Part shown: positions 27,799-43,063 of the stretch, one piece after another
How the letters are laid out: each line of letters starts with the position of its first letter
How positions within the stretch are numbered: the stretch's first letter is position 1
Origin: Streptococcus orisratti DSM 15617
Lineage (GTDB): Bacteria > Bacillota > Bacilli > Lactobacillales > Streptococcaceae
Direction: 5' to 3'
Assembly (NCBI RefSeq): GCF_000380105.1
Contig: NZ_KB904526.1
Span: 1 to 64,000, forward strand
Length of the DNA: 64,000 bases
The notes under the pieces: model-generated
Databases searched by the model: none
The model's input: only the letters and a program-made list of their open reading frames with translations
Told to the model about the DNA's origin: nothing
Translations under genes and position numbers: made by a program

Positions 27799-28085
27799 AC
27801 TTCGACCTTCTCTCTAGCCAGTCCAAGATAAACTAGCGCAGCAAATAGCGGAACCAGAGGTGTTCCAGAACTCCCCTTACCAAGCCAATTGAGCACAGCC
27901 AATATTGCGAAAAGACCCGATACCACCAAATAACCCTTGTTCCAAGTTACTGTCATAGCTGGTACATCTTCACCAGACTCCACTTTGAGACGACGCTTGC
28001 TAGCAACAACGCGAGCCGCACCTAGTTTAACGATGGCCGTTAGTAACACTAAAATCAACAAAAACCAATCACTATTACTTAACAT
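27795..28085 (-). CDS. Small conserved membrane protein between rsmD and coaD (96 aa)
   Basis: The protein is 96 aa with hydrophobic helices near residues 6-25 and 50-86 and a short charged cytoplasmic loop (VVASKRRLKVESGEDV). It overlaps rsmD by 11 nt and coaD by 4 nt, so it is a genuine operon member. AAGGTGACAG precedes the start. No function is known to me. Confidence 0.75.
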   Translation of the reverse strand: MLSNSDWFLLILVLLTAIVKLGAARVVASKRRLKVESGEDVPAMTVTWNKGYLVVSGLFAILAVLNWLGKGSSGTPLVPLFAALVYLGLAREKVEV

Positions 28086-28614
28086 AAACTGTCACCTTGC
28101 TAATTCCATAGACCTTCTGTTTCCAGATTCCAACGCTGGCAATCTCTTCAGGTAAGCCCACCGACTTATCTGTTTCACAGACAATCATCACATGATCCGA
28201 GAGGAGCCCACGCGCATCTAGCATCTCAATAGTTTTAACGATTTCTTCCTTGGCATAGGGTGGGTCTAACAGCACCAAGTCAAACTGACTCAAAAGCTGA
28301 TCTAGCGCACGGTTGGCCTCCATCTTAAGAAGCTTAAACTGTCTCTCGCTTTTGGTCATCTTGATATTTTCTTGGATAATAGCTTGCGCACGCCGGTCAC
28401 GCTCGACCAATACAGCTTCATCCATACCTCGTGAAATAGCCTCAATAGCTAGGCTACCGCTGCCAGAATACAAATCTAACACACGTCCCCCATCAAAGAA
28501 TGGACCAATCATATTATAAATGGCCCCCTTAACCTTATCAGTTGTCGGACGCGTCGTCCTTCCCTCTAGCGTCTTCAGAGGACGCCCACCAAATTTACCT
28601 GCTACAACTCTCAT
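28075..28614 (-). CDS. rsmD: 16S rRNA (guanine-966-N2)-methyltransferase
   Basis: RsmD (179 aa) is an S-adenosylmethionine-dependent enzyme that methylates G966 of 16S rRNA in the assembled 30S subunit. The N-terminal RVVAGKFGGRPLKT, the SAM-binding VLDLYSGSGSLAIEA and the catalytic DPPY motif near residue 117 are all present. It is the first gene of the rsmD-coaD-sepM cluster. The upstream ribosome binding site is weak. Confidence 0.95.
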   Translation of the reverse strand: MRVVAGKFGGRPLKTLEGRTTRPTTDKVKGAIYNMIGPFFDGGRVLDLYSGSGSLAIEAISRGMDEAVLVERDRRAQAIIQENIKMTKSERQFKLLKMEANRALDQLLSQFDLVLLDPPYAKEEIVKTIEMLDARGLLSDHVMIVCETDKSVGLPEEIASVGIWKQKVYGISKVTVYVK

Positions 28615-28733
28615 AAAGACTATTATAGCAGAAATTGGAGAAGCTGAAAATGAAACATCATTTTTTCCGAAACAATAGCATGCAAAAAAGTACCCCCAAT
28701 CATAAACGTCATTGAGAAAGCATTAGGAAAACG

Positions 28734-28762
28734 TTTACAAATTCATTGCAAATTGATATAAT
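28734..28762 (+). promoter_or_regulatory. Promoter of the secreted repeat protein gene
   Basis: TTTACA (28734-28739), a 17-nt spacer and TATAAT (28757-28762) lie 48 nt upstream of the start codon. GAAAACGTTTACAA over the -35 is a weak cre-like sequence; I give that little weight. Confidence 0.75.
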
Positions 28763-28809
28763 AATTTTATATTATTTCACTATTTAAAGTTTTTTAGAGG
28801 AGGATTATT

Positions 28810-29763
28810 ATGAAAAAGGTGAAATGGTTTACTGGGTTAGTGCTAATATTAATGTCACTTCAATCCCCAACAATTAATTCAGTTATTCAGTCTACTTCTG
28901 TAACTAACCAACAAATTAGTGTTGTTTCCGCAACGACTCACTCCAACAAAAAGAGTGCTGTCAATAAAGCTAAAAAAGCAGTCAAAAATCTCGAAAACAA
29001 TCCTACAAGAGACAATCTAAAAAATGCTAAGAAAAGCGTTAAGAAAGTCAAAGTTAAAAAGACTAAAACGCTCTTAAAAAAACGGATTGCCAAAGTTGAG
29101 CAAACCATCCTTATCACCGAAGCAAAGACAGCAGTTGACTACCTCGAAAAGAATCAAGTCCGTAGTAATATAAAAGAAGCTCATGATAAAGTAGCTGCTC
29201 TCAAGTCTAAGACTTTACAAAGCGAACTCAACAAGCGAATTGAGACTGTTTCCAGAGCTATTACTGCTGAGGAAGAGGCTATTGCTGCAGCAGAGACTGC
29301 CATCAAAAATCTTGAAAATAGCCAGATTCGTGATAACATAGCTGATGCTCAAACCAAGACTGATGCAGTCACTTCAACCACTGTTAAAGATGGATTTACC
29401 AAACGAATCAATGCTGTTGTTCAGGCTATTGAAACTAGGGAAGCAGAGAATGCGGCAGAAGCAGCCGTAAAAAATCTCGAAAATAATCAGGTTCGTGAAA
29501 ATATCGCTGATGCACAAAATAAAGTTAATGCCGTAACAGACACAACCAAGAAGGATGCCTTCAATACACGTATTACCGCTGTCACCAACGCCATTGACAC
29601 TCGTGAAGCTCAAGCACAGCAAGCAGCAGAACAACAGGCAGCAGCGGCGGCACAGCAACAAAATACTGGTGGGTATAAAAGAGACTCTCGGGGAAGATGG
29701 CATAGATCAAATGGTCAATATGCATCAAAAGCTGAAATTGCAGCCGCTGGTCTACCTTGGTAA
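28810..29763 (+). CDS. Secreted protein with four ~50-residue repeats and a conserved C-terminal motif
   Basis: The protein is 317 aa. A signal peptide is likely in the first 40 residues (MKKVKWFTGLVLILMSLQSP, cleavage near VVSA). Four degenerate repeats follow, starting near residues 52, 103, 158 and 212, each with a core like NLENNQVRENIADAQ and a xxRI-xxVxxAI end. They are helical and similar to repeat domains of other Gram-positive surface proteins. A Gln/Ala linker leads to a last 30 residues rich in aromatic and basic residues (GYKRDSRGRWHRSNGQYASK). There is no LPXTG anchor. AGAGGAGGATTATT precedes the start. It is monocistronic and the only + strand gene for 28 kb. Function unknown. 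Confidence 0.82.
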   Translation: MKKVKWFTGLVLILMSLQSPTINSVIQSTSVTNQQISVVSATTHSNKKSAVNKAKKAVKNLENNPTRDNLKNAKKSVKKVKVKKTKTLLKKRIAKVEQTILITEAKTAVDYLEKNQVRSNIKEAHDKVAALKSKTLQSELNKRIETVSRAITAEEEAIAAAETAIKNLENSQIRDNIADAQTKTDAVTSTTVKDGFTKRINAVVQAIETREAENAAEAAVKNLENNQVRENIADAQNKVNAVTDTTKKDAFNTRITAVTNAIDTREAQAQQAAEQQAAAAAQQQNTGGYKRDSRGRWHRSNGQYASKAEIAAAGLPW

Positions 29764-29786
29764 AATATTAGCCCGACATAAATATC

Positions 29787-29822
29787 CAAAAAATCCCCGC
29801 GTTAATACGCGAGGACTTTTTT
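29787..29822. terminator. Bidirectional terminator between the repeat protein gene and gltD
   Basis: TCC-c-CGCGT and ACGCG-a-GGA form a stem with a TAAT loop, bounded by A-run and T-run on the two sides. It serves the convergent genes ending at 29763 and 29869. Confidence 0.88.
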
Positions 29823-29868
29823 GAACTCTAGAAAACTATAAAAATAGTCCAGAAATCTCTGATTTCTT

Positions 29869-31308
29869 CTATTGTGCTACCATCACTCGTAGCTCTTGAT
29901 CAATTTTCTCAGCTGTCTTACGCCCCTCACGGATCCCCCAAATAACAAGACTTGGTCCACGGCGTGCATCTCCAGCTACAAAGACTTGATTATTATTAGT
30001 TGAGTAATCATCATAAACACTTTGAACTCCAAATTGTTCAAATAATGATGTTTCAGCTCCAGTGAAGCCCATAGCAAGAAGAACAAGATCAGCCTTGATA
30101 ACTTCTTCTGTTCCTTCAATCGGCTTAAACCCTGGACCAACTTTAACAGTTTTAGCAGCAATAACTTGCCCTCGATCAGCACCAATAAACTCAGTTGTTG
30201 AGGTTGCATAAACTGTCAGTTCTGTATCTTGAACATAGTCGGCTTCTTCTTGACCATAACCTGTACGCTTAACCATAGGATATTGTGGCCAAGGGTTAGT
30301 TGGCAATCGTTTTACTGGTGGTTCTGGAGTGATTTCCAATTGCTTGACACTAGCCGCTCCCAAACGGACAGCAGTTCCGATACAGTCATTACCAGTATCT
30401 CCGCCACCGATAACAAGAACGTGCTTACCTTCCAAGGTGCGACCAAGTTTTTTATTGCCTGAAGCAAGAACATTTTTTGTTGTCTCTGTTAAGAAATCAA
30501 CAGCGAAACGAACACCACTAAGGTGACGGCCCGGAACTTCCAAATCACGAGGCACACTAGCACCAGTTGCTAAAATCACACGATCATATTGCTCCAAAAG
30601 TTCGTCAGCAGTAATATCGCGACCAATTTCAGTATTTGCGACAAAGTTAACTCCCAACTTAGACATGACATCAATACGACGTTGAACAATCTCCTTATCC
30701 AATTTCATATTTGGGATACCGTACATGAGAAGACCACCAAATCGGTCACTACGCTCATAAACAGTCACACTATGACCAAGTTTATTAAGTCTCCATGCTG
30801 CCGATAAGCCAGCCGGACCTGAACCAACCACAGCAATTTTAAAGCCTGTACGCTGAGAAGGACGACCCGATTCTTCGACCCAACCATTTTCAAAAGCAGT
30901 ATCAATGATAAAACGTTCATTGTCATGAATGGTAACACCTGAGCCATTTAATCCTTCTGTACACCCTTTTTCACATGGTGCAGGACAGACACGACCTGTC
31001 ATCTCAGGAAGTGGGTTGGTACGGCTCAATCGCTCAAAGGCACGCTTGAAGTCTCCTTTGTAAACCAAATCATTCCACTCAGGAATCAGGTTGTCGTTAG
31101 GGCATCCTGATACGGCTCGGCCTCCACCATAAAAGGCACCTGAATGGCAGAAAGGAATTCCACAAGCCATACAACGTGCAGCTTGCTTTTGACGTTCCTC
31201 TTCTGATAGTGGTGTTTGTAATTCTTCAAAGTCCAAAATGCGCTCGGCAACAGGACGGTAAGGATTGTCCTTACGTTCATATTTCAAAAATCCAAATGGG
31301 TCTGCCAT
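29869..31308 (-). CDS. gltD: Glutamate synthase (NADPH) small subunit
   Basis: The protein is 479 aa. It passes electrons from NADPH to the large subunit for conversion of glutamine and 2-oxoglutarate to two glutamates. N-terminal cysteine clusters (CMACGIPFCHSG and later CPAPCEKGC) bind iron-sulfur centres. The FAD-binding VVGSGPAGLSAAW and the NADPH-binding VLVIGGGDTGNDC follow. The start lies 1 nt after the gltB stop. It completes GOGAT with gltB. Confidence 0.96.
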   Translation of the reverse strand: MADPFGFLKYERKDNPYRPVAERILDFEELQTPLSEEERQKQAARCMACGIPFCHSGAFYGGGRAVSGCPNDNLIPEWNDLVYKGDFKRAFERLSRTNPLPEMTGRVCPAPCEKGCTEGLNGSGVTIHDNERFIIDTAFENGWVEESGRPSQRTGFKIAVVGSGPAGLSAAWRLNKLGHSVTVYERSDRFGGLLMYGIPNMKLDKEIVQRRIDVMSKLGVNFVANTEIGRDITADELLEQYDRVILATGASVPRDLEVPGRHLSGVRFAVDFLTETTKNVLASGNKKLGRTLEGKHVLVIGGGDTGNDCIGTAVRLGAASVKQLEITPEPPVKRLPTNPWPQYPMVKRTGYGQEEADYVQDTELTVYATSTTEFIGADRGQVIAAKTVKVGPGFKPIEGTEEVIKADLVLLAMGFTGAETSLFEQFGVQSVYDDYSTNNNQVFVAGDARRGPSLVIWGIREGRKTAEKIDQELRVMVAQ

Positions 31309-31309
31309 C

Positions 31310-34300
31310 TTATTTTCCTCCTGTTACTGTTGCGAGAAGCTCTTCTTTCTCGGCAGCTGTTTCCGCACCACCTGTAGCAATCTCAAAGGTACGTAGTTCA
31401 AGTTCATCACCTTCAAGACCACGATTGGCGAGAGCATGTTCAATATTGTTGATTTCATGGAATTCAGTTGGGTAAACCTTGATAAACTTACCAACTTCAT
31501 TAGCCCAATTATCCAAAAGACGCTTAGCCTTGGCACTGCCTGTATATTCGTAATGTTTTTGAATCATATCAACAAGAACATCATCACCACGTGTTTCACC
31601 GACTTTGTAAAGGTCAACCATTTCAGTGTTAACTTTTTCAGCAAAATCACCATTAACATCATAGACGTAGGCAACACCACCAGACATACCAGCCGCAAAG
31701 TTTCGTCCTGTTGTTCCAAGGATAACCGCAACACCACCAGTCATGTATTCACAACCATGTGCACCAACACCTTCAACCACAACCTTGGCACCAGAGTTAC
31801 GTACACAGAAACGCTCTCCCGCACGGCCAGCGAAGTAAGCTTCTCCATTGACTGCACCAAATAGTGATACGTTTCCAACAATAGGAGAATTTTCAATATC
31901 ATAACCAGCATCATGTGGTGGTTTTACGATGAGACGGCCACCAGACATGGACTTGGCAATATAGTCATTAGCTTCTCCAATGAGAGTTAATTCCATCCCT
32001 TGTGTAATAAAGCTTGCAAATGATTGACCAGCAATACCAGTGTATTCATACTTGATGAGTCCTGGTTCAACAGTGTCATTACCATAACGTTCTGCCATCC
32101 ATCCAGCCATACGGGCACCAACAGCACGTTGCACATTATTGATACTTTCCTTGATAGTCACGCTAGTTTCACTGTCAATAGCTGCCGCTGCAAAACCATC
32201 TAATTCCCTCCACTGACGTGGGTCAGCAAATGGGTCCTCTGTCTTGCGTTCAATTGGATAGGCTGTACCCAAAATACGAGAGAAATCTAGTGACTTCGCC
32301 TTTCCTTTTGGAATGAATTTAGCCTTGAGGATTTCAGAATGTCCAACCATTTCATCTACAGAGCGGAAACCAAGTTCTGCCATATATTCGCGCAGTTCTT
32401 CTGCCATAAAGAACATCATATTGATGACATGTTCAGGCTTACCAGCAAAATGCTTCCGCAAGTCAGGATTTTGAGTCGCAACACCAACTGGACAAGTGTT
32501 GAGCGAGCAAACTCGCATCATAACACAACCTACTGATACAAGAGCCAAACTAGCAAACGAATATTCTTCAGCTCCAAGAAGTGCCGCTACCGCTACATCA
32601 CGGCCTGTCATAAGTTTACCATCTGTTTCAAGTGTCATACGTTGACGAAGACGGTTGAGTGACAGCGTTTGATGTGCTTCAGCCAGCCCCATTTCCCAAG
32701 GGAGACCAGCATCGCGAACAGAGTTACGAGGCGAAGCCCCTGTACCACCATCATATCCAGAGATAACAACCTTGTCAGCGCCAGCTTTCACACAACCCGT
32801 TGCAATGGTACCAACACCCGTGCTTGATACCAGTTTAACATTAATTTTAGCATAAGGATTGATAGCTTTGAGGTCATAAATCAGCTGTGCCAAATCTTCA
32901 ATTGAATAAATATCATGGTGCGGTGGTGGGGAAATCAAGCGAACACCAGGCGTTGCACCACGGATTTCAGCAACCCAAGGGAATACTTTTTGTCCAGGAA
33001 GTTGACCACCTTCACCAGGTTTCGCACCCTGAGCCAACTTAATTTGTAGTTCTTCAGCAGACATGAGGTATTCAGCATTGACACCAAAACGACCAGATGC
33101 CACTTGTTTGATTTTAGAATTGAGATTACGACCATCAGGTTGAACTTTGAAACGATTTCGGTTTTCGCCACCTTCACCAGAGTTGGATTTAGCACCAATA
33201 CGGTTCATGGCTTCTGCAATAGTTTCATGTGCCTCTTTTGATAGAGAACCAAAACTCATGGCACCAACCTTAAAGCGTTTGACTATACTTTCAGCTGGTT
33301 CAACTTCTGAAAGGTCAACTCTAGGACGGTTAGAATGAAATTCCCAAATAGAACGAAGCGTCGTTGGATGCTCAAGTGCTTCTTTATCCAGCTCAGTAGT
33401 ATAAGTCTTGAAGAGGTTATAATCCCCTCTACGAACTGCTTGTTGGAAATTATAAATAGTCTGTGGATTGAAGAGATGATATTCACCATCCGCTTTAAAT
33501 TGGTAACTGCCACCGCTCTGAAGATAGTCATCACGTCTTGCACCAAAGGCGTCCTCAATACGCTGCAGGTATTCTGCTTCGATTTGGTCAAGTGATAAAC
33601 CGCCAATGCGAGTCACCGTTCCTGTAAAGTATTGGTTCACAACAGCATCAGACAGACCAACGGCTTCAAATAATTGGGCTCCCTTATAACCAAGAATGGT
33701 TGAGATTCCCATACGACTCATGACTTTTACGATACCTTTTTCTGCTGCTTTCCGATATTTTTCATATGCTGTTTCATCCTTGCCATAGTCTGCAAGTGTC
33801 GCATACGCACCATAAGGATGGATAGCCGCTGCGCCATAGCCAACCAAGGTCGCAAAGTGGTGAACTTCAGTCGCTTCAGCTGTATCAACAACAATTGAGA
33901 ACTGGCTAGCTTTTCCTTTGACAACCATATAGTTATTCAAGCCAGATACAGCTAACAGGATTGGAATAGCAGACTGCCCCTCCTTGACACCACGGTCTGA
34001 TAAAATGATGATTTTGCTACCGTTATCTACTGCTTTTTCTGCTGCTTTGAAAAGATTTTCCAGAGCACGTTGCAAACGATTTCGGCTAGGTTCAACTAAA
34101 TCATAAACTGTTGATAATGTTGTCGAACTATAACGGACATCAGTCAACTGAGCCAGTTTGGCAAAATCCTGATTAGAGAGTACTGGGCTATCAATTTTGA
34201 CCTTAACACAATTATCCGCACCATCTACAGTAAAATTCCCATCTCCTCCCAAATACACACTAGTGGATACTACGATTTTTTCACGAATAGCATCAATTGG

Positions 34301-35827
34301 CGGGTTCGTTACTTGGGCAAACTGTTGTTTGAAGAAAGTAAAGAGGGACTGATTTTTATTTGACAAAACAGCCAATGGGCTGTCAAATCCCATAGAAATG
34401 ACAGGTTCCTCTCCTCTTTCAGCCATAGGAAGAATAACTGTACGAATCACTTCCTCTGTGTAACCATATGTTTTCCACAAGGTTGTGATGTTACCTACCT
34501 CTTCTTTAACTTCTACTGCTTCAAAATCATTGAGATGGGCGATATTTTCTTCAACCCATTTTTTATAAGGATATTGAGCTGAATAATAAGCCTTAACTTC
34601 CTCATTTTTCATGAGTTTACCAGAAGTCGTATCAATCAACATCATGTTACCAGGACCAAGCACACCTTTTTCAACAACACGACTTGGTTCTAAGTCAACA
34701 ACACCTGATTCGGATGAACAAATCAAAAAGTTATCCTTAGTTAATGAATAACGACTTGGTCGGAGACCATTACGGTCAAGACGAGCACCAACCATATCTC
34801 CGTCTGTGAAAACAAGGGCAGCTGGTCCATCCCAAGGGGCCACGAAACTTGAAGCATATTCGTAGAAAGCCTTCAACTCGTCAGAAAGACCGGATTGCTC
34901 ACCCCAGGCTTCTGGCACCATCATCAATAAACTTTGTGGAATATCACGTCCGTGACGATAAAGATATTCCAAGCAGTTTTCTAGTTTAGCTGAATCAGAA
35001 TTTTCTTCATTATAAACTTCAATTTGATGGCTGTGCATCCAGTTTTCAGCACCACGTAGGGTATTAATTTCACCATTATGGGCTAAGAAACGAAATGGTT
35101 GTGCGCGGTCCCAAGATGGAAAAGTATTTGTTGAAAAGCGTGAATGTGTCAGAGCGATATGTGACTTGAATAACTCATCCGTCAAATCAGGATAAAAAAG
35201 CCCAACTTGAAACGCATGCAACATTCCCTTATAAACAATCGTTTTACTAGACAAAGAACAAATGAAAAATTCATCCGCTGAAAAACTCTTCTCTAGTTGA
35301 CGACGCAAACGGAAGAGTTTATCTTCAAACGCTCGCCCAGCTTTAGTATCAGAAGGTTTACTAATAAACAATTGAACAAAACTAGGCATAATTTCTTGTG
35401 CAGCAGGACCGCAATTATCATAATTAAAAGGAACATCTCGCGTAAACAGAACACGATAACCTGCATTTTTAATTTCAGATTTAACAGCAGCTAAAAGACT
35501 GCTTTTTGCCTCAATATCTTGTGGAAGATAAAGCTGTGCAACAGCATAGTCTCCTTTTGATGGCAAAACCAGTCCGGCTTCGGTAGCCTTTGCTTGGAAA
35601 AATTCATCTGGCATAGCCAACAACATTCCTGCACCGTCACCAGTATCAGGTTCTGCGCCTGTCCCACCACGATGATTCATCCGCGTTAACATGGTCAGAG
35701 CATAGTCAATCAGAGTATGACTAGGCTCACCATCAAGCTGTGCAACAAATCCCATTCCACAGGCATCTGATTCAAATGATGGTTCCCAGAGAGTCGTCTG
35801 CTGAGCCTTCAAAGCATCTTCATTCAT
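31310..35827 (-). CDS. gltB: Glutamate synthase (NADPH) large subunit
   Basis: The protein is 1505 aa. The class II glutamine amidotransferase domain should be matured at Cys-23 (DACGMGFVA) after removal of a 22-residue propeptide. A central domain and an FMN-binding synthase domain follow, with a 3Fe-4S cysteine motif (CVMMRVCSLNTCPVG), and a C-terminal beta-helix domain rich in glycine (GANGEAYFAGRAGERF-like region) ends it. Together with GltD it makes glutamate in the cytoplasm. TTGAGGAGAAAAAGCT precedes ATG 35827. No GlnR box is visible upstream, unlike asnA and glnA. Confidence 0.96.
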   Translation of the reverse strand: MNEDALKAQQTTLWEPSFESDACGMGFVAQLDGEPSHTLIDYALTMLTRMNHRGGTGAEPDTGDGAGMLLAMPDEFFQAKATEAGLVLPSKGDYAVAQLYLPQDIEAKSSLLAAVKSEIKNAGYRVLFTRDVPFNYDNCGPAAQEIMPSFVQLFISKPSDTKAGRAFEDKLFRLRRQLEKSFSADEFFICSLSSKTIVYKGMLHAFQVGLFYPDLTDELFKSHIALTHSRFSTNTFPSWDRAQPFRFLAHNGEINTLRGAENWMHSHQIEVYNEENSDSAKLENCLEYLYRHGRDIPQSLLMMVPEAWGEQSGLSDELKAFYEYASSFVAPWDGPAALVFTDGDMVGARLDRNGLRPSRYSLTKDNFLICSSESGVVDLEPSRVVEKGVLGPGNMMLIDTTSGKLMKNEEVKAYYSAQYPYKKWVEENIAHLNDFEAVEVKEEVGNITTLWKTYGYTEEVIRTVILPMAERGEEPVISMGFDSPLAVLSNKNQSLFTFFKQQFAQVTNPPIDAIREKIVVSTSVYLGGDGNFTVDGADNCVKVKIDSPVLSNQDFAKLAQLTDVRYSSTTLSTVYDLVEPSRNRLQRALENLFKAAEKAVDNGSKIIILSDRGVKEGQSAIPILLAVSGLNNYMVVKGKASQFSIVVDTAEATEVHHFATLVGYGAAAIHPYGAYATLADYGKDETAYEKYRKAAEKGIVKVMSRMGISTILGYKGAQLFEAVGLSDAVVNQYFTGTVTRIGGLSLDQIEAEYLQRIEDAFGARRDDYLQSGGSYQFKADGEYHLFNPQTIYNFQQAVRRGDYNLFKTYTTELDKEALEHPTTLRSIWEFHSNRPRVDLSEVEPAESIVKRFKVGAMSFGSLSKEAHETIAEAMNRIGAKSNSGEGGENRNRFKVQPDGRNLNSKIKQVASGRFGVNAEYLMSAEELQIKLAQGAKPGEGGQLPGQKVFPWVAEIRGATPGVRLISPPPHHDIYSIEDLAQLIYDLKAINPYAKINVKLVSSTGVGTIATGCVKAGADKVVISGYDGGTGASPRNSVRDAGLPWEMGLAEAHQTLSLNRLRQRMTLETDGKLMTGRDVAVAALLGAEEYSFASLALVSVGCVMMRVCSLNTCPVGVATQNPDLRKHFAGKPEHVINMMFFMAEELREYMAELGFRSVDEMVGHSEILKAKFIPKGKAKSLDFSRILGTAYPIERKTEDPFADPRQWRELDGFAAAAIDSETSVTIKESINNVQRAVGARMAGWMAERYGNDTVEPGLIKYEYTGIAGQSFASFITQGMELTLIGEANDYIAKSMSGGRLIVKPPHDAGYDIENSPIVGNVSLFGAVNGEAYFAGRAGERFCVRNSGAKVVVEGVGAHGCEYMTGGVAVILGTTGRNFAAGMSGGVAYVYDVNGDFAEKVNTEMVDLYKVGETRGDDVLVDMIQKHYEYTGSAKAKRLLDNWANEVGKFIKVYPTEFHEINNIEHALANRGLEGDELELRTFEIATGGAETAAEKEELLATVTGGK

Positions 35828-35956
35828 AGCTTTTTCTCCTCAATTTATAGAATAAATAGTCAAATTATTCAGAATTTTCATTTTGTATTATATCACAAGT
35901 TTCTTATTTAGAATAGTTATTATTATATATTTTTCGTTTTACTGAATAAAAATTAA

Positions 35957-35990
35957 AAGAGGTTGGGACAAAATGTACCCAACTTCTTGT
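35957..35990 (-). terminator. Hairpin after glnA
   Basis: AAGAGGTTGGG and CCCAACTTCTT pair across a short loop. On the minus strand the TTTTAATTTTT that follows makes a plausible terminator for glnA. The GGTTGGGACAAAA half is a common streptococcal intergenic hairpin motif. Confidence 0.6.
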
Positions 35991-36205
35991 AATTTTGTAA
36001 TTTTACTTGCGAGGCACAGTGGTTACGGAGATTCTATCAACTTTAGTCAATATAAGATTTCCCCTGAATGATTCATTAGCATTAGGTACCAACGAAAATC
36101 TGCTGATTGGCGAGGATAGGCTCAAGTCCGACCTCACCTCTCAGAGTTTGTGTCAACATTCAACACAAAGGTTACTCAACCGTTCCACTCTCAAGGTTAA
36201 ATTTT
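35991..36205. other. Non-coding stretch between glnA and the hairpin
   Basis: About 215 nt separate the glnA stop from the hairpin at 35957-35990. Only short, unconvincing ORFs are present on either strand (for example a 25-codon frame on the minus strand near 36160-36085). Base composition is richer in GC than the rest of the spacer, suggesting a conserved element or a gene remnant. I do not recognise it. Confidence 0.35.
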
Positions 36206-37552
36206 TTAGTAGAGGTTGAGGTAGTTATCAATTTCCCATTGTGAAACAAAGGCAGCATAACTTGACCATTCAATCTTCTTAGCTTCAACAAAGTTAGTAA
36301 AGATGTGTTCACCAAGTGCAGACTTAACAACTTCATCTTCTTGAAGAGCTTTAACCGCATTGTGAAGTGTTGAAGGAAGGTCTTTAATACCTGCAGCCTT
36401 ACGTTCATCTTCTGTCATGACATAAATATTTGTTTCGACTGGAGCTGGCGCTTCAATTTTATTTTCAACACCATCAAGACCTGCTTCCAAAAGAACGGCA
36501 AGAGCAAGATAAGGATTAGCTGTTGGATCAACTGAGCGAAGTTAAAGGCGTGTCCCCATACCACGTGAAGCAGGAACGCGGATAAGTGGTGAACGGTTAC
36601 GTCCAGCCCAAGCAATGTAAACTGGCGCTTCATAACCAGGAACCAAACGCTTGTATGAGTTTACAGTTGGATTCATGATTGCGGTATAGTTGTAAGCGTG
36701 TTTCATCAAACCGCCAAGGAAATCATAGGCAGTTTCTGACAATTGCATTCCTCGTGGGTCTTCTGGGTCAAAGAAAGCATTTTTACCATCTTTATCAAAA
36801 AGAGACATATTACAGTGCATACCTGAACCGTTAATACCGAATTTAGGTTTAGCCATAAATGTCGCATAAAGACCATGTTTACGAGCAATAGTCTTAACAA
36901 CCAGTTTGAAGATTTGGATATTATCACAAGCTTTCAAAACATTAGCGTACTTAAAGTCGATTTCATGTTGACCTACTGCTACCTCGTGGTGACTAGCTTC
37001 AACTTCAAATCCCATTTGGGTCAAAACATTGACGATTTCACGACGTGTATTATCAGCCAAATCTGTAGGAGCAAGGTCAAAGTAACCACCTTGGTCGTTC
37101 ACTTCAAGTGTAGGTTCACCTTTTTCATCCATTTTGAAAAGGAAGAATTCAGGTTCTGGACCAAGGTTGAATGATTTGAAACCAACTTCTTCCATATGAT
37201 GCAATGCACGTTTTAGATTACCACGTGGATCTCCTGCAAAAGGTTCACCTTCAGCAGTATAAACATCACAAATCAAACCAGCAACAGCACCGTTTTCTCC
37301 ACCCCAAGGAAAAACAGTCCAAGTATCAAGATCTGGGTACAAGAACATATCTGATTCATTGATGCGAACAAATCCTTCAATTGATGAGCCATCAAACATA
37401 GCTTTGTTTGATAAAACTTTTTCAAGTTGTTCATCAGTTGCTGGAATTTCAACATTTTTCAATGTTCCTGCGATGTCTGTAAACATCAAACGTAAGAAGG
37501 TAACATTTTTTTCTTTAATATCTTTTTTGATATCAGCAGCAGTAAGTGTCAT
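36206..37552 (-). pseudogene. glnA: Glutamine synthetase type I with an in-frame stop codon
   Basis: The full frame would be 448 aa from ATG 37552 (AAAGGAG upstream) to 36206. Family motifs are intact: the beta-grasp N-terminus, DGSSIEGF, the GPEPEFFLF metal-site segment, [10 protein letters not shown] and [13 protein letters not shown]. At 36542-36544 a TAA interrupts TRL[15 protein letters not shown]. Intact enzymes have Glu here (TRLELRS or TRVEVRS), a metal-binding residue, so GAA to TAA by one transversion is the simplest reading. The product would stop after residue 336, losing the C-terminal 111 residues. The frame beyond is otherwise open and well conserved, so the change is recent or a base-call error. 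glnR is not next to it. Confidence 0.9.
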
Positions 37553-37696
37553 GGTGTTCTCCTTTGTTAACAAAAATACCAATACACATGTGAAATGTGC
37601 AGAAATTGATGTTTTTTATAGGTTAAATCTTTGATTTATGATGAATTTTCTTTAAATCCATGAACATTATTCAAATAATTCAACTTATCTAGATTC

Positions 37697-37725
37697 ATTA
37701 TAATCTTATCAGAATATTTTGTCAA
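37697..37725 (-). promoter_or_regulatory. glnA promoter
   Basis: On the minus strand TTGACA (37720-37725), a 17-nt spacer and TATAAT (37697-37702) form a consensus sigma-A promoter about 145 nt above the glnA start. A perfect GlnR box lies just upstream of the -35. Confidence 0.9.
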
Positions 37726-37731
37726 GTCTAA

Positions 37732-37750
37732 ATGTTATAAAATGTAACAT
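37732..37750. promoter_or_regulatory. GlnR box upstream of glnA
   Basis: ATGTTATAAAATGTAACAT fits ATGTNA-N7-TNACAT without mismatch. It lies 6 bp upstream of the glnA -35 box. GlnR with glutamine-bound glutamine synthetase represses such promoters in streptococci, so a truncated GlnA may also alter feedback on this site. Confidence 0.88.
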
Positions 37751-37765
37751 CATTTCCAAAAAAAT

Positions 37766-37793
37766 AAAAGAACCAAGAAAACTTGATTCTTTT
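37766..37793 (-). terminator. Terminator after asnA
   Basis: On the minus strand AAAAGAATCAAG pairs with CTTGGTTCTTTT, followed by A then a seven-T run. It separates asnA from glnA, whose GlnR box starts 16 nt further on. Confidence 0.85.
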
Positions 37794-37805
37794 AAATAAG
37801 TATGC

Positions 37806-38798
37806 TTACAAAATGTTATCAAACGTTTCACGAACTTCTTTTGGCCAAACACTAGATTGTACTTCACCAATATGTTTCTTACGAAGCAAGAACATTGCCA
37901 TACGAGATTGACCGATACCACCACCTATGGTAAGTGGGAATAGACCATTAAGAAGAGCCTTATGCCATTCTAATTGTAAACGATCTTCGTCACCTGTAAT
38001 CTTGACTTGGCGTTTAAGCGCCTCCTCATCGACACGAATACCCATAGATGATAATTCAAACGCTGAACCAAGCGCTTCGTTCCAAACGATAATATCACCA
38101 TTTAAACCATGATAACCATTTTCAGATTCTGAAGTCCAGTCATCATAGTCAGGTGCACGTCCATCGTGGCGTTCACCATCTGGCAAAATGCCACCAATAC
38201 CGATAAGGAAAATAGCTCCAAATTCTTTAGCAGCAGCATTTTCACGTTCTTTTGGTGTCAAATCTGGATATTTTTCAACCAATTCTTCAGTGTGAATAAA
38301 TGTAATCTTTTTAGGCAAAACAGCTTCAATATCAAAGCGTGCTTCAACTGCTAATTCTGTCAATCGAATAGCTTTATAAACTTGTTCAACTGTTTCTTTC
38401 AAATAAGTAATATCACGACGACCATTAGGAATTACTTTCTCCCAATCCCATTGATCCACATAAATAGAGTGGATGGGATCCAAATCCTCTTCGTCTGGTC
38501 GGAGAGCTTTCATGTGTACGAAAAGCCCTTCTCCTTCATTGAAGCCAAAACGTGCCAAAGTGTGACGTTTCCACTTAGCAAGTGAATGAACAACTTCAAA
38601 TTCAGCATCTGGAATGCGTTTAACGTGCACTGAAACAGGATTTTCGATACCACTCAAATTATCTTGCATACCATCCCCGACCTGACTAAGAATAGGTCCT
38701 TGCACTTCAACAATTTCAAGTTTGTCAATCAAATATTGTGTAAAAGTATTCTTGACAAAAGAAATCTCCTGTTGCTGATGAATAAAGCTTTTCTTCAT
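37806..38798 (-). CDS. asnA: Aspartate-ammonia ligase (asparagine synthetase A)
   Basis: The protein is 330 aa, the usual AsnA length. It joins ammonia to aspartate using ATP, giving asparagine, AMP and pyrophosphate, in the cytoplasm. The class II aminoacyl-tRNA-synthetase-like fold is recognisable, with [19 protein letters not shown] near residue 33, [11 protein letters not shown], and the C-terminal [12 protein letters not shown] nucleotide-binding segment. AAAGGAGGAGCAAAC precedes ATG 38798. A perfect GlnR box lies 111 nt upstream, which links its expression to nitrogen status together with glnA. Confidence 0.96.
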
Positions 38799-38908
38799 GT
38801 TTGCTCCTCCTTTAAAAATTAAGATAGGGCTATTATATACCTTTCAAAAGCAAAAGAAAACCCCTTTTTCAAAATTTTTGCAATTTTTCTGCCAATTTCG
38901 AACCTTTT

Positions 38909-38927
38909 ATGTTATATAATCTAACAT
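38909..38927. promoter_or_regulatory. GlnR box upstream of asnA
   Basis: ATGTTATATAATCTAACAT fits ATGTNA-N7-TNACAT without mismatch. It overlaps the stop codon region of the acetyltransferase gene and lies upstream of a TATAAT (near 38832-38837 on the minus strand) that probably drives asnA. Confidence 0.82.
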
Positions 38928-39355
38928 TTGTCCCAGTTTTTTATAAATCTCTTTTGTTCTGGTCTTTCCACATAACCCATTTTTTTATAAAATGCATGAG
39001 CGCCCCTTCTAGATATACCTGAATTAACACGGATACCTGAGATATTGGACCGCTGGGCCAACTTTTCTAATTTCGACAAAAGAGCTGCTCCAAAACCTTT
39101 CCCTTGATAATCTTGAGATACAGCTAGCGCCATTAGATTCCATAAAGGTTTAAAATACAGTGTTTCATAGAGCTGGGCATGCACATAACCGACCACGTGA
39201 CCATTTTCTTCAGCTACCAAAATGGTGTGATTAGAGTCCTGTAAAAGCTTCTCAAGCTGAGCCTTAGTTGCTGACATATCACTATCATAGCCCAAACTAT
39301 CACGGTTAATGGCATAGAGCGCTTGGACATCTGATAAACGAGCCGATCTAATCAT
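38921..39355 (-). CDS. GNAT-family N-acetyltransferase
   Basis: The protein is 144 aa and covers a complete GNAT fold. The acetyl-CoA binding motif A is visible as AVSQDYQGKGFGAALLSKLE near residues 78-97, and the C-terminal YKKMGYVERPEQKRF is typical. It overlaps the end of the MmcQ/EVE gene by 8 nt. The substrate cannot be inferred; related streptococcal enzymes acetylate small molecules or protein N-termini. Confidence 0.88.
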   Translation of the reverse strand: MIRSARLSDVQALYAINRDSLGYDSDMSATKAQLEKLLQDSNHTILVAEENGHVVGYVHAQLYETLYFKPLWNLMALAVSQDYQGKGFGAALLSKLEKLAQRSNISGIRVNSGISRRGAHAFYKKMGYVERPEQKRFIKNWDKC

Positions 39356-40406
39356 TTAGGGTTTCCTCAACTTTCTCAATGAGTTCTTTGGTCATGCGAC
39401 GCGGTCCACGGATATTACTGACACCCAGTTCTTCGAGAACGGATGCCGGAAATTTGCCATCATCAAACTGTCGAATAAGCTCAATGCGCATGAGTCTCTT
39501 GATGTCTGGATGGTTGCGGTAGCCGTTATTGTCCGTATCGGCTTCTAAGACTCGGCAGAGATAGCGGAGCATCCGACTAGGTGCAGTGATGTAAATGCCC
39601 ACATAGTCTCCCTTCTTGATGGAGGCTTTTTGAGTCCAGTCAATAATTTTATTTTCCGTAAACTCTGCATCAATGTCATAATACTTAGGATTAGCAGGAA
39701 TCAGCCAGAAATTTGGCCCTTGGCTGCGACCTAGTAGATTAGGAGCAGCTAGACTACGACTTTGGGTAACTAATTCCCAAAGTTCTTCATCTGATAAACT
39801 ATCGTCAAGCACTACCGAAACCCAGCTCTTCTTGGACATGTGGTAACTAGGAAAAATGCCGTCTTTACTGAGTAAATTTGCTATTTCAGTTGGCTCAACC
39901 TTGAGATTAACCACTTCAACTTCCTGCTCTGCTATTGCCCCCGAAAATCCTAACTTTTCCAACTTAAGTGGAAAAATCAAGGCATACCACTTACCACCAA
40001 CACGATAGGAAGCATACTGAGGATATTTCTCAAAAGGGTAATCGACGGGATCGCCCCACTCACTCGCAATCCAATCAGCTAGGCGGTTGGCCTGGTCGTT
40101 GGAAAATGGCAGAGCTTGACAGCAATTGCTAGCTATGCGCTCCAAAACATCCAGATAGGCCTCACGCACTTGGCCGACAAAGCTACCACTAGCACGCTCA
40201 ACATAAAGAGCCAGATACTCTTCATTTAATTCCGAATCCATGACCTTACTAGCTATTTGCCCGTCAAATGTGACCTGTATCCGCACTTCAAAATCACCAT
40301 TTAAAATAGTTTCATGGTAAGTGTAGCCATTCTCCGACTGAATAAAGCCAAAAGGCAACAGTTTTTCAAAACAAATTCGTTTTTTTGCAAATATAGAAGA
40401 ACTCAA
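39348..40406 (-). CDS. MmcQ/YjbR-domain protein with C-terminal EVE-like domain
   Basis: The protein is 352 aa from TTG 40406, chosen because GGAGGGGGTGAC precedes it. The middle third reads like an MmcQ/YjbR (CyaY-like fold) domain: KWYALIF near residue 143 and SYHMSKKSWVSVVLD near 190. From about residue 232 the sequence PNFWLIPANPKYYDID through GDYVGIYITAP to CRVLEAD matches an EVE/PUA-like nucleic-acid-binding domain. The first 90 residues are unassigned. EVE domains often read modified bases, so a nucleic-acid role is plausible, but no activity is known. It is coupled to a GNAT gene by overlap. Confidence 0.75.
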   Translation of the reverse strand: MSSSIFAKKRICFEKLLPFGFIQSENGYTYHETILNGDFEVRIQVTFDGQIASKVMDSELNEEYLALYVERASGSFVGQVREAYLDVLERIASNCCQALPFSNDQANRLADWIASEWGDPVDYPFEKYPQYASYRVGGKWYALIFPLKLEKLGFSGAIAEQEVEVVNLKVEPTEIANLLSKDGIFPSYHMSKKSWVSVVLDDSLSDEELWELVTQSRSLAAPNLLGRSQGPNFWLIPANPKYYDIDAEFTENKIIDWTQKASIKKGDYVGIYITAPSRMLRYLCRVLEADTDNNGYRNHPDIKRLMRIELIRQFDDGKFPASVLEELGVSNIRGPRRMTKELIEKVEETLND

Positions 40407-40442
40407 GTCACCCCCTCCTTTCTCTTATAGCCATTATAACAA

Positions 40443-40479
40443 AAAAGGAAGCCAGAATAGACTTCTTAACTTCCTTTTC
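40443..40479 (-). terminator. Terminator after oleate hydratase
   Basis: On the minus strand AAAAGGAAG pairs with CTTCCTTTT and leads into TTTTGTT. It lies a few nt past the ohyA stop. Confidence 0.75.
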
Positions 40480-40482
40480 TTT

Positions 40483-42258
40483 TTAAACGACATGGTAACG
40501 TTTCAGGAGTTTCTCAATATCTGTCCCTTCTGTCTTACGAAGGGCTTGCTTAAGAATAAATTTTTCGACAAAGTTCAGCTTCATATCAGTGATAGCCTTG
40601 CCATCACGCAGTGCAACTGTCGCATGAAGCAAGTCACGCACATCATAGGTGCTGCCCCAAACTTCTGGGACACCACGGTCAATGTCTAATAAGGTGTAAA
40701 CAGCTTCCATACCTGTCCGAATAGAGTATTCTGTAGTAAAAATGGTATCACGCTGCGTTTCCGCAAATTGTCCTAAAAAGGCAAAGTTAAGAGCGCCATC
40801 AGGTACGACATTTGGGCGATCTCCTTTTTCACGCGGCATAAAGAATGCTGTTATGTAAGGCATCATACAAGGAACAGTTTTGGCACTGTGACGCGACAAA
40901 TTATCAATTTCTGCTACTGGTACGCCCATATGATAAAGCCATTCGGCACAAATTTCCTGACCGGTGCAATCGCGCATTGTTTTTTTGATATAGTCGCCTT
41001 CCTTATCAGAAAATAGCCCATAAACCCAAACCACTAATTCATTTTTAGCTTGATTTCTGAACTGTGGTTGGCGGTTAACCGTCCAGCTCATCAGCCAACT
41101 TGAATCCTTGACAGTGACAATTCCACCTGTAACAACCTTACCTGAAAATGGGTCTCGCTTACAAATCTTTTGAATATAAGCTGGAATCTTATCATCAGTT
41201 GTGGTTACTGTGGCACTCATCCAGTTAGATTGTTCAGGGTCATAACAGAATTTGTCTGGATGACCAAAGCTAGCATCTTGTGCCGCAATCTTCCGCCACA
41301 TATCCCAGCCACCACCTGGACGAATTTCCTTATTAAAGCTAGCAGGCTTATCTTGGCTGCCGTAACTTGAATTTTCAACACAGCCGCCATTGGTGATAAA
41401 GACCAAATCATTTTCAGTCAGGTCAATGCTATCTTCTTGCCCATCACGAATAACTTCAATCTTTTTAGCAACCTTCTTATCTTTTTGACAGTCAAAGAGG
41501 ACATTGACCACCTTGGTATTGTAATGGAAAACAACGCCAAAAGATTCCAGATACTTAACCATCGGCAAAATCATAGATTCGTATTGATTGTAGCGGGTAA
41601 AGCGCAGAGCTGTGAAATCAGGCAAACCACTGATATGGTGAATAAAGCGTTTGATATAAAGCTTCATCTCCAGAGCAGAATGCCAATTTTCAAAAGCAAA
41701 CATGGTCCGCCAATAAAGCCAGAAATTAGAGTCAAAAACTTCATCATCAAAAACTTCATTGATTCGTTTGTTATAAAGATCTTCATCAGGTGTGAAGAAG
41801 AGTTTCATAATTTCCATAGCCGCCTTGTCAGACAAGCCAAACTTCTTATCTGTATGTGCATCTTGACCTTGTTTTTCAGTAGCACGGCAGAGCGAATAGT
41901 TAGGGTCTGCTTTATTGAGCCAATAATATTCGTCCAAGACACTGACACCATCCGTTTCAATGGAAGGAATGGAGCGGAAAAGATCCCACATGCATTCAAA
42001 ATGATTGTCCATCTCACGGCCGCCCCGCATGACATAACCGATATCACTGTATTGATAACCATCGCAGGCACCACCAGGAATCGGATCCTTTTCTAAGATA
42101 TGGACTTGTTTACCAGGCATTTGCCCATCACGAACAAGAAAGCAAGCAGCTGAAAGAGCGGCTAAGCCAGAGCCTATGATATAGGCTGATTTGTGATCAA
42201 CACCAGCTGGCTTTTGAGGACGAGCAAAAGCTTCATAATTACCACTAGAATAATACAT
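40483..42258 (-). CDS. ohyA: Oleate hydratase (67-kDa myosin-cross-reactive antigen family)
   Basis: The protein is 591 aa from ATG 42258, supported by GAGAGG upstream; the frame extends to 42273. This FAD enzyme hydrates cis-9 double bonds of oleate and linoleate to 10-hydroxy fatty acids, which detoxifies host fatty acids. The dinucleotide-binding IIGSGLAALSAACFLVRDG lies near residue 27. Family stretches include FALPGGACDGYQ-like PGGACDGYQYSD and MRGGREMDNHFECMWDLF. Length matches the family. A TetR-type gene lies directly upstream and may control it. Confidence 0.94.
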   Translation of the reverse strand: MYYSSGNYEAFARPQKPAGVDHKSAYIIGSGLAALSAACFLVRDGQMPGKQVHILEKDPIPGGACDGYQYSDIGYVMRGGREMDNHFECMWDLFRSIPSIETDGVSVLDEYYWLNKADPNYSLCRATEKQGQDAHTDKKFGLSDKAAMEIMKLFFTPDEDLYNKRINEVFDDEVFDSNFWLYWRTMFAFENWHSALEMKLYIKRFIHHISGLPDFTALRFTRYNQYESMILPMVKYLESFGVVFHYNTKVVNVLFDCQKDKKVAKKIEVIRDGQEDSIDLTENDLVFITNGGCVENSSYGSQDKPASFNKEIRPGGGWDMWRKIAAQDASFGHPDKFCYDPEQSNWMSATVTTTDDKIPAYIQKICKRDPFSGKVVTGGIVTVKDSSWLMSWTVNRQPQFRNQAKNELVVWVYGLFSDKEGDYIKKTMRDCTGQEICAEWLYHMGVPVAEIDNLSRHSAKTVPCMMPYITAFFMPREKGDRPNVVPDGALNFAFLGQFAETQRDTIFTTEYSIRTGMEAVYTLLDIDRGVPEVWGSTYDVRDLLHATVALRDGKAITDMKLNFVEKFILKQALRKTEGTDIEKLLKRYHVV

Positions 42259-42330
42259 CTTGATACCTCTCATCTTTTTTATTTATCTCTATTGTAAAAG
42301 CCTCCCTGCCTAAGAACAATAAACAAAAAA

Positions 42331-42361
42331 GCTTAAATGATAATTTTTTTATCATTTAAGC
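42331..42361. terminator. 13-bp perfect inverted repeat between the TetR gene and ohyA
   Basis: GCTTAAATGATAA (42331-42343) pairs with TTATCATTTAAGC (42349-42361) across five T. On the minus strand it is followed by TTTTTTG, so it can terminate the regulator transcript. It is also long and symmetric enough to be an operator. Confidence 0.7.
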
Positions 42362-42381
42362 ATATTTGATAAAAAGCAGAA

Positions 42382-42945
42382 CTATCTCCCTTTAGTATCA
42401 TAATGTTGCAGAGCAACTACGATATTACCATGCACTAAGATGGCCAGACGATTGACCAAGTCTTGAGGGTCTTCTCTCATGTCCTTTTTAATCCAATCCA
42501 ACATGAGCCCGACTAGGGCATACTTGTAAAAGTCTGCTATAAAGTCCTTATCTTCAGTGCTGACGCGTAAACCAACTGCCTTTTCCTCAACCACATCAAT
42601 CATGAGCTGATAGGTCAACTGATAGAGATAGGTTTCAATCTGCTCCCGACTCACCGAGTGATAAACATTAAGGATAAAAGGCTTATTTTCCCTGACTGCT
42701 TTAAAAATATCCAGCAACCCTTCCTCCCAGCTATCATAATGCCGATTTTCACCAAGAGCCTTTTGCGCATCTTCCTCACAAGACCACTCCACCAAATCAT
42801 AAATATCCTTGAAGTGATAATAAAAAGTCATCCGACTAATCCCACAGTCATCCGTAATATCCTGAATGGTGATCTTGGGTAAAGGCTTTTGCAGCAACAG
42901 GTGCTTCAAAGACGCTTCCAAAGCTTTTTTCGTTATTTGTGCCAT
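42382..42945 (-). CDS. TetR-family regulator (DhaS-like)
   Basis: The protein is 187 aa from ATG 42945, supported by GAAAGAGGAAACT; the frame extends to 42990. The N-terminal helix-turn-helix reads ITIQDITDDCGISRMTFYYHFKD, followed by a TetR_C_8-like C-terminal domain with FYKYALVGLMLDWIKKDM. DhaS in lactococci is an activator of this subfamily, so repression should not be assumed. Its position directly before ohyA suggests it responds to fatty acids or membrane stress; this is inference. Confidence 0.88.
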   Translation of the reverse strand: MAQITKKALEASLKHLLLQKPLPKITIQDITDDCGISRMTFYYHFKDIYDLVEWSCEEDAQKALGENRHYDSWEEGLLDIFKAVRENKPFILNVYHSVSREQIETYLYQLTYQLMIDVVEEKAVGLRVSTEDKDFIADFYKYALVGLMLDWIKKDMREDPQDLVNRLAILVHGNIVVALQHYDTKGR

Positions 42946-43063
42946 AGTTTCCTCTTTCAATACCTTTATTATACCAAAAAGTAAAGCCAAGCATAGTATT
43001 AGACTTGATTATAAGATGTAACTTTTACAATGCTAAGGAGCTATTCCATTTATCTGTTGATTA

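Follow-up and report, generated by a model that had tools for sequence, protein, structure and literature searches.

The type I glutamine synthetase (GS) of low-GC Gram-positive bacteria, of the GSI-alpha kind, is encoded in the glnRA operon. A table in PMC3412718 records one glnA and one gltAB for Streptococcus mutans UA159 and one glnA for other streptococci, so that streptococci normally have a single GS and the loss of a spare one is no surprise. The structural account in PMC9249791 places the Y loop at residues 365-373 of the B. subtilis enzyme, and attributes to the C-terminal helices alpha14 and alpha15 both the holding together of the two GS rings and the contact with the GlnR tail. 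The window, that is the whole stretch of 64,000 nucleotides analysed here, contains a glnA gene in another setting, in the order asnA, glnA, gltB, gltD, an oppositely oriented surface-protein-like gene, rsmD, coaD and a PDZ protease gene, the last three names being those that we presume for the flanking genes. A literature search, judged by title and the start of the abstract, returned no paper on the subject of a second streptococcal glnA.

A stop codon inside the window glnA

The GS frame of the window (minus strand, 37552 to 36206) comprises 448 codons and is complete apart from a single internal stop, a TAA that directly follows the residues ASRGMGTRL (Table 1). Homology to Gln-synt_N and Gln-synt_C, the beta-Grasp domain included, extends along the entire frame and places the gene in the type I GS lineage. 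Each half matches Gln-synt_C separately, at profile positions 2-238 and 240-344 of 344, which means that just one codon is missing; a complete catalytic domain in one frame is absent. As 1344 bases of conserved frame contain one stop, the arrangement is not due to chance. A general change of the genetic code was rejected as well, since the frame holds no other stop and gltB, gltD and asnA are open.

The site of the stop was compared with 53 other Streptococcaceae GS genes, taken from 44 Streptococcus genomes (hand-picked from 60 further loci), from 8 named records including Floricoccus (8 of at least 80 matching loci) and from the second GS copy of the host on contig C46. The G031 gene in this alignment lacks the last 23 residues, and G246 shares an identical gene with Streptococcus sp. 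DD12. All 53 genes encode Glu at the site and none has a stop there. The original prediction of an in-frame stop at a conserved Glu codon of glnA, in a frame open and family-conserved on both sides, is thus borne out, and no relative keeping a GS with the same stop, the finding named as able to refute it, was met among the genes aligned. The site aligns with about residue 333 of the B. subtilis GS in deduced numbering, and we take this Glu to be a metal ligand seen in GS structures; the term Glu333 did not occur in the results of a literature search.

By comparison with the structures of PMC9249791, the Y loop, alpha14 and alpha15 all lie behind the stop. The 336-residue part consists of the beta-Grasp domain plus some two thirds of the catalytic domain; without the Y loop and the C-terminal helices, such a product is expected to be inactive, to fail to assemble into the oligomer and to take no part in GlnR feedback.

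Table 1. Features of the glnA-gltBD region (window coordinates)
Feature	Position	Strand	Basis or remark
rsmD-like gene, flanking the block on its far side; then coaD-like and PDZ-protease-like genes	28075..28614	-	
gltD, glutamate synthase small subunit, intact	29869..31308	-	479 codons
gltB, glutamate synthase large subunit, intact	31310..35827	-	1505 codons
TGTGA-TATAAT, presumed own promoter of gltB, TGTGATATAAT	35887..35897	-	by eye
Terminator-like hairpin with a T-rich stretch behind it, lying between broken glnA and gltB	35956..35988	-	by eye and fold
3' remnant of glnA, 111 codons and original stop, conservation kept	36206..36541	-	alignment, dN/dS, Gln-synt_C match
In-frame TAA, codon 337 of 448	36542..36544	-	frame reading and alignment, Glu in 53/53 others
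5' part of second GS gene, would give 336 residues	36542..37552	-	
Sigma-70 promoter match TTGACA-N17-TATAAT, 12/12	37697..37725	-	promoter scan
GlnR-box match TGTTA-N7-TAACA before glnA	37733..37749	-	just upstream of -35 box
asnA, upstream flank of the block	37806..38798	-	330 codons; GlnR-box match at 38910-38926

Two glutamine synthetase genes of different ancestry

The host genome, a draft of 2,416,134 bases in 90 contigs (100% complete, 0.18% contamination), contains two GS genes, namely the window gene and a gene without stops at C46:27646-28986. The latter lies directly behind glnR, which encodes a MerR-type regulator and was matched once in the genome, on C46 only. The original prediction had taken the window gene for the glnA of the strain; it is rather a second, probably acquired copy. 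One of the alternatives then offered was a recent pseudogene with another GS elsewhere, and the genome search proposed for a second glnA beside glnR found precisely that, an intact glnA adjoining the only glnR match. This first alternative fits best.

The two GS proteins are 88% identical over their full length and the two genes 79% identical in DNA. Ten genes at the C46 locus, glnR and glnA among them, are collinear with those of Streptococcus henryi (G103), by which the C46 glnA looks native; no paper on the S. henryi genome was found by title in the literature search. The C46 locus is the single locus by which the host would be placed near S. henryi, and the RNase J protein of the host is equally close (96%) to those of G263, G103 and G130.

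A tree of 53 GS DNA rows separated the two copies. The C46 gene was sister to the S. henryi glnA with a support of 100/99, and the window gene was placed next to ten glnA genes whose genomes all carry gltB (91/81, not starred), in a tree that left out the gltB-bearing genomes G094, G156, G177, G213, G251 and G298 as well as the shortened gene of G031. A more inclusive group of 20 rows (89/92) contains in addition G111, G112, G231, G234 and G246, which have no gltB. Forcing the two host copies together lowered the log-likelihood by 65.7 and was rejected (p-AU 0.001); with 79% DNA identity between the copies, a recent duplication within the host genome was likewise rejected. The gltB protein tree put the window gene in a group of 12 that also contains G067 and those same ten genomes (SH-aLRT 99). 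The window and C46 copies differ in ancestry.

Match counts for GS, asnA and glnR were taken from per-genome tables. Of 284 Streptococcus genomes, GS was matched in 283 and more than once in only five (G000, G170, G245, G264 and G197). The matches in G170, G245 and G264 are pieces of one GS gene; those in G197 are two copies of equal score and opposite orientation near a contig start, with fragments at the other contig end. This leaves the host, G000, as the only genome in which two full-length copies of divergent sequence were observed. Beyond the genus a pair of GS genes is no rarity: G036, G037, G040, G044 and G052, five of the 23 genomes of the same order, each have two of full length. It should also be noted that G264 (L334, L339, G264:C39) has its GS only in broken form, in pieces with five stops, and that G183 gave neither a GS nor a glnR match at the cut-offs used; these two may be glutamine auxotrophs by nature, or their assemblies may be faulty.

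The glnA-gltBD block, its site and its control

Both the stop and the glnA-gltBD block were observed in one isolate, and one genome per species was compared. Among the 284 Streptococcus genomes gltB is present in 19, S. henryi not being one of these. Ten asnA loci from other genomes were inspected: in nine of them (G103, G067, G096, G130, G263, G132, G091, G060 and G203) rsmD lies close to asnA and nothing between the two matches glnA, gltB or gltD, and in the tenth (G246) only asnA is shown. Together with the intact C46 copy and the separate ancestry, the position of the block between asnA and rsmD, a site without it in relatives, argues that the window glnA is a redundant and probably acquired copy. 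The patchiness of gltB could also reflect losses, and repeated loss of gltBD is then an alternative to transfer.

Counterparts of the block have the order glnR-glnA-gltB-gltD in G067, G096, G130 and G132 and likewise in the cluster of Floricoccus tropicus. G263 (L299, L300) is a separate case of glnA apart from glnR: its glnR adjoins RNase J, and its glnA-gltBD lies on another contig with its own GlnR-box-like site.

The two sides of the block do not have the same relatedness to G067. On the asnA side, window positions 37806-42993 share 96.0% identity with G067 across 5189 aligned bases. This tract of 5.2 kb, which carries a tetR-type regulator gene, an MCRA-family (oleate hydratase-like) gene, two small genes and asnA, ends sharply at the asnA stop codon. 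On the far side, rsmD and beyond are 71-76% identical to G067, a difference that points to at least one recent exchange between species beside the block. The block itself is 83.5-84.3% identical to the glnA-gltBD that G067 carries elsewhere; from these values the asnA side and the block may have arrived at different times, and the block would come from a lineage outside the sampled genomes. Next to rsmD, positions 28810-29763 encode a repeat protein rich in lysine and alanine, which begins with a signal-like segment and has no Pfam match, and variable relatives of it (41-51% identity) lie near rsmD in seven of the ten asnA loci fetched. A comparison with phage records gave no match.

The GlnR box, the promoter and the downstream gltBD, described from the outset as looking intact, were indeed found: a box match and a 12/12 sigma-70 match precede glnA, and gltB and gltD are full-length. 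The window contains four matches to the GlnR-box consensus of PMC4959772 for 1.76 expected (at least four in 9 of 100 shuffles, weak alone), and the promoter scan as a whole gave five sigma-70 matches for 6.0 expected by chance. With counts so close to chance, box and promoter are backed by their place and perfection and not by their number. A second perfect GlnR-box match lies before asnA, and since G067 and S. henryi also have a GlnR box upstream of asnA, this gene may belong to the GlnR regulon.

Between glnA and gltB, a terminator-like hairpin is followed by a promoter-like sequence, so that expression of gltBD need not depend on the broken glnA; a polar loss of gltBD was rejected on this predicted arrangement. 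The hairpin is unlisted by the terminator scan, which admits loops of 3-8. The motif TGTGRTATAAT was also found by eye in the spacers of G067, G096 and G130 and not in that of G263 (three of the four compared). The spacer before gltB measures 378 bases in the window against 147-177 in these four genomes. About 200 bases of it (35990-36200, minus strand) have no counterpart in the spacers of the four relatives and fold better than shuffled sequences (z -2.63, 3/200 as good). Parts of this segment, mostly 33-97 of 216 bases, recur in 19 others of the 284 Streptococcus genomes, twice in seven of the 19 (two candidates scored per genome), and it is possibly a small repeated element. Rfam gave no match over 28600-39000 at E 0.1, and over 35900-36260 it gave four matches, all far under the gathering scores.

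Fate of the broken copy and comparison with known systems

Intact relatives, one inactivating change and an intact second copy in the genome were found for the window glnA, as for a pseudogene; an ancestry unlike that of the native copy and a block-less site in nine of ten asnA loci were found for the block, as for an acquired one. We consider it probable that the window glnA is a redundant second GS that came with gltBD, probably by transfer, and whose nonsense codon would be tolerated given the native glnRA. In the proposed course of events, glnA and gltBD would have reached the lineage together, probably from another streptococcus, and now lie between asnA and rsmD. The native glnRA on the other contig would supply glutamine as well as the GS that feeds back on GlnR, and because that copy is present the nonsense mutation would have cost little; the function of gltBD may be kept through its own promoter-like sequence behind the hairpin.

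Besides the stop, the window glnA has no change at sites on which 95% or more of the 52 others agree; among the full-length genes of that alignment the number of such changes runs from 0 to 16. Its dN/dS against six relatives was 0.036-0.054 ahead of the stop, where four pairs of intact GS genes gave 0.007-0.059, and 0.065-0.087 behind it, where these pairs gave 0.029-0.095, so that both values lie inside the range of intact genes. Neither the conserved positions nor dN/dS gave any sign of relaxed constraint or further decay. With no other departure and low dN/dS on both sides, the break would be recent, or else the base call is in error.

A base-call or assembly error, which would leave the genome with two working glutamine synthetases, is rather unlikely in our judgement. 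It would account for a stop that is the sole defect of the gene, with constraint behind it that looks unrelaxed, and damaged lone GS genes do occur in other public assemblies, with one TGA in G031, five stops in pieces in G264, and pieces also in G170 and G245. However, that damage may itself be real, the neighbouring gltB, gltD and asnA (1505, 479 and 330 codons) are free of defects, and a nonsense codon in a redundant copy is what a real mutation would look like.

It is very unlikely that the 336-residue product is made and acts, either as a poison subunit in the rings of the C46 enzyme or as a GlnR partner that blunts feedback. The gene is preceded by promoter and GlnR-box matches, about two thirds of the catalytic domain is kept, with the E flap included by position, and the two copies are similar enough that mixed oligomers could form in principle. 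Against this, the Y loop, alpha14 and alpha15, which according to the account in PMC9249791 concern the rings and the GlnR tail, are missing, and constraint behind the stop is the same as in intact genes, so that any new role would be very young. A more elaborate version, in which a short GS expressed under GlnR control serves as a regulatory or poison subunit that tunes nitrogen control after the gain of glutamate synthase, appears highly improbable, and we give the same small credence to its proposed means, the joining of native-enzyme rings or the occupation of GlnR. Reading through of the TAA, with some full-length enzyme made, is extremely doubtful: frame and conservation do go on behind the stop, but none of the 53 other genes has a stop there, the second GS makes readthrough unnecessary, and the tRNA scan detected no tRNA gene in the window and hence no suppressor candidate. 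Finally, the suggestion of glutamine auxotrophy in the strain, combined with altered GlnR feedback, for which nothing speaks beyond the stop itself and the possible existence of streptococcal genomes without intact GS (no match in G183, only a broken gene in G264), was rejected as next to impossible because the glnRA pair on C46 is intact, and glutamine auxotrophy is not expected.

The reading we prefer, a redundant and probably acquired copy, makes this a case of ordinary pseudogenisation, with nothing unusual and a mildly interesting history. A gene that looks essential and broken is a spare, which explains away what looked like a serious defect; a streptococcus with a probable gain of glutamate synthase through a glnA-gltBD block has apparently been caught shedding the redundant glnA. 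For annotators, one broken copy is no ground for calling auxotrophy.

Compared with known systems, the C46 locus of the host is a glnRA pair of the kind described for low-GC Gram-positive bacteria. The window copy resembles such a pair in the 88% protein identity of its GS to that of C46 and in similar GlnR-box and promoter matches, and differs from it in having no adjoining glnR, in preceding gltBD and in carrying a nonsense codon. With the glnR-glnA-gltB-gltD clusters of G067, G096, G130, G132 and Floricoccus tropicus it shares the order glnA-gltB-gltD and, for G067, G096 and G130, TGTGRTATAAT before gltB; the window GS (first 336 residues) and GltB proteins are 91-94% identical to those of G067 and the ten nearest genomes. 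By contrast with these clusters, the window block is without glnR, occupies the asnA-rsmD site, has the longer spacer before gltB and contains a broken glnA. It also corresponds to the pseudogene of a horizontally acquired duplicate, being redundant, of other ancestry, inactivated by one change and accompanied by block neighbours that are kept, except that the window glnA is only at the earliest stage of decay.
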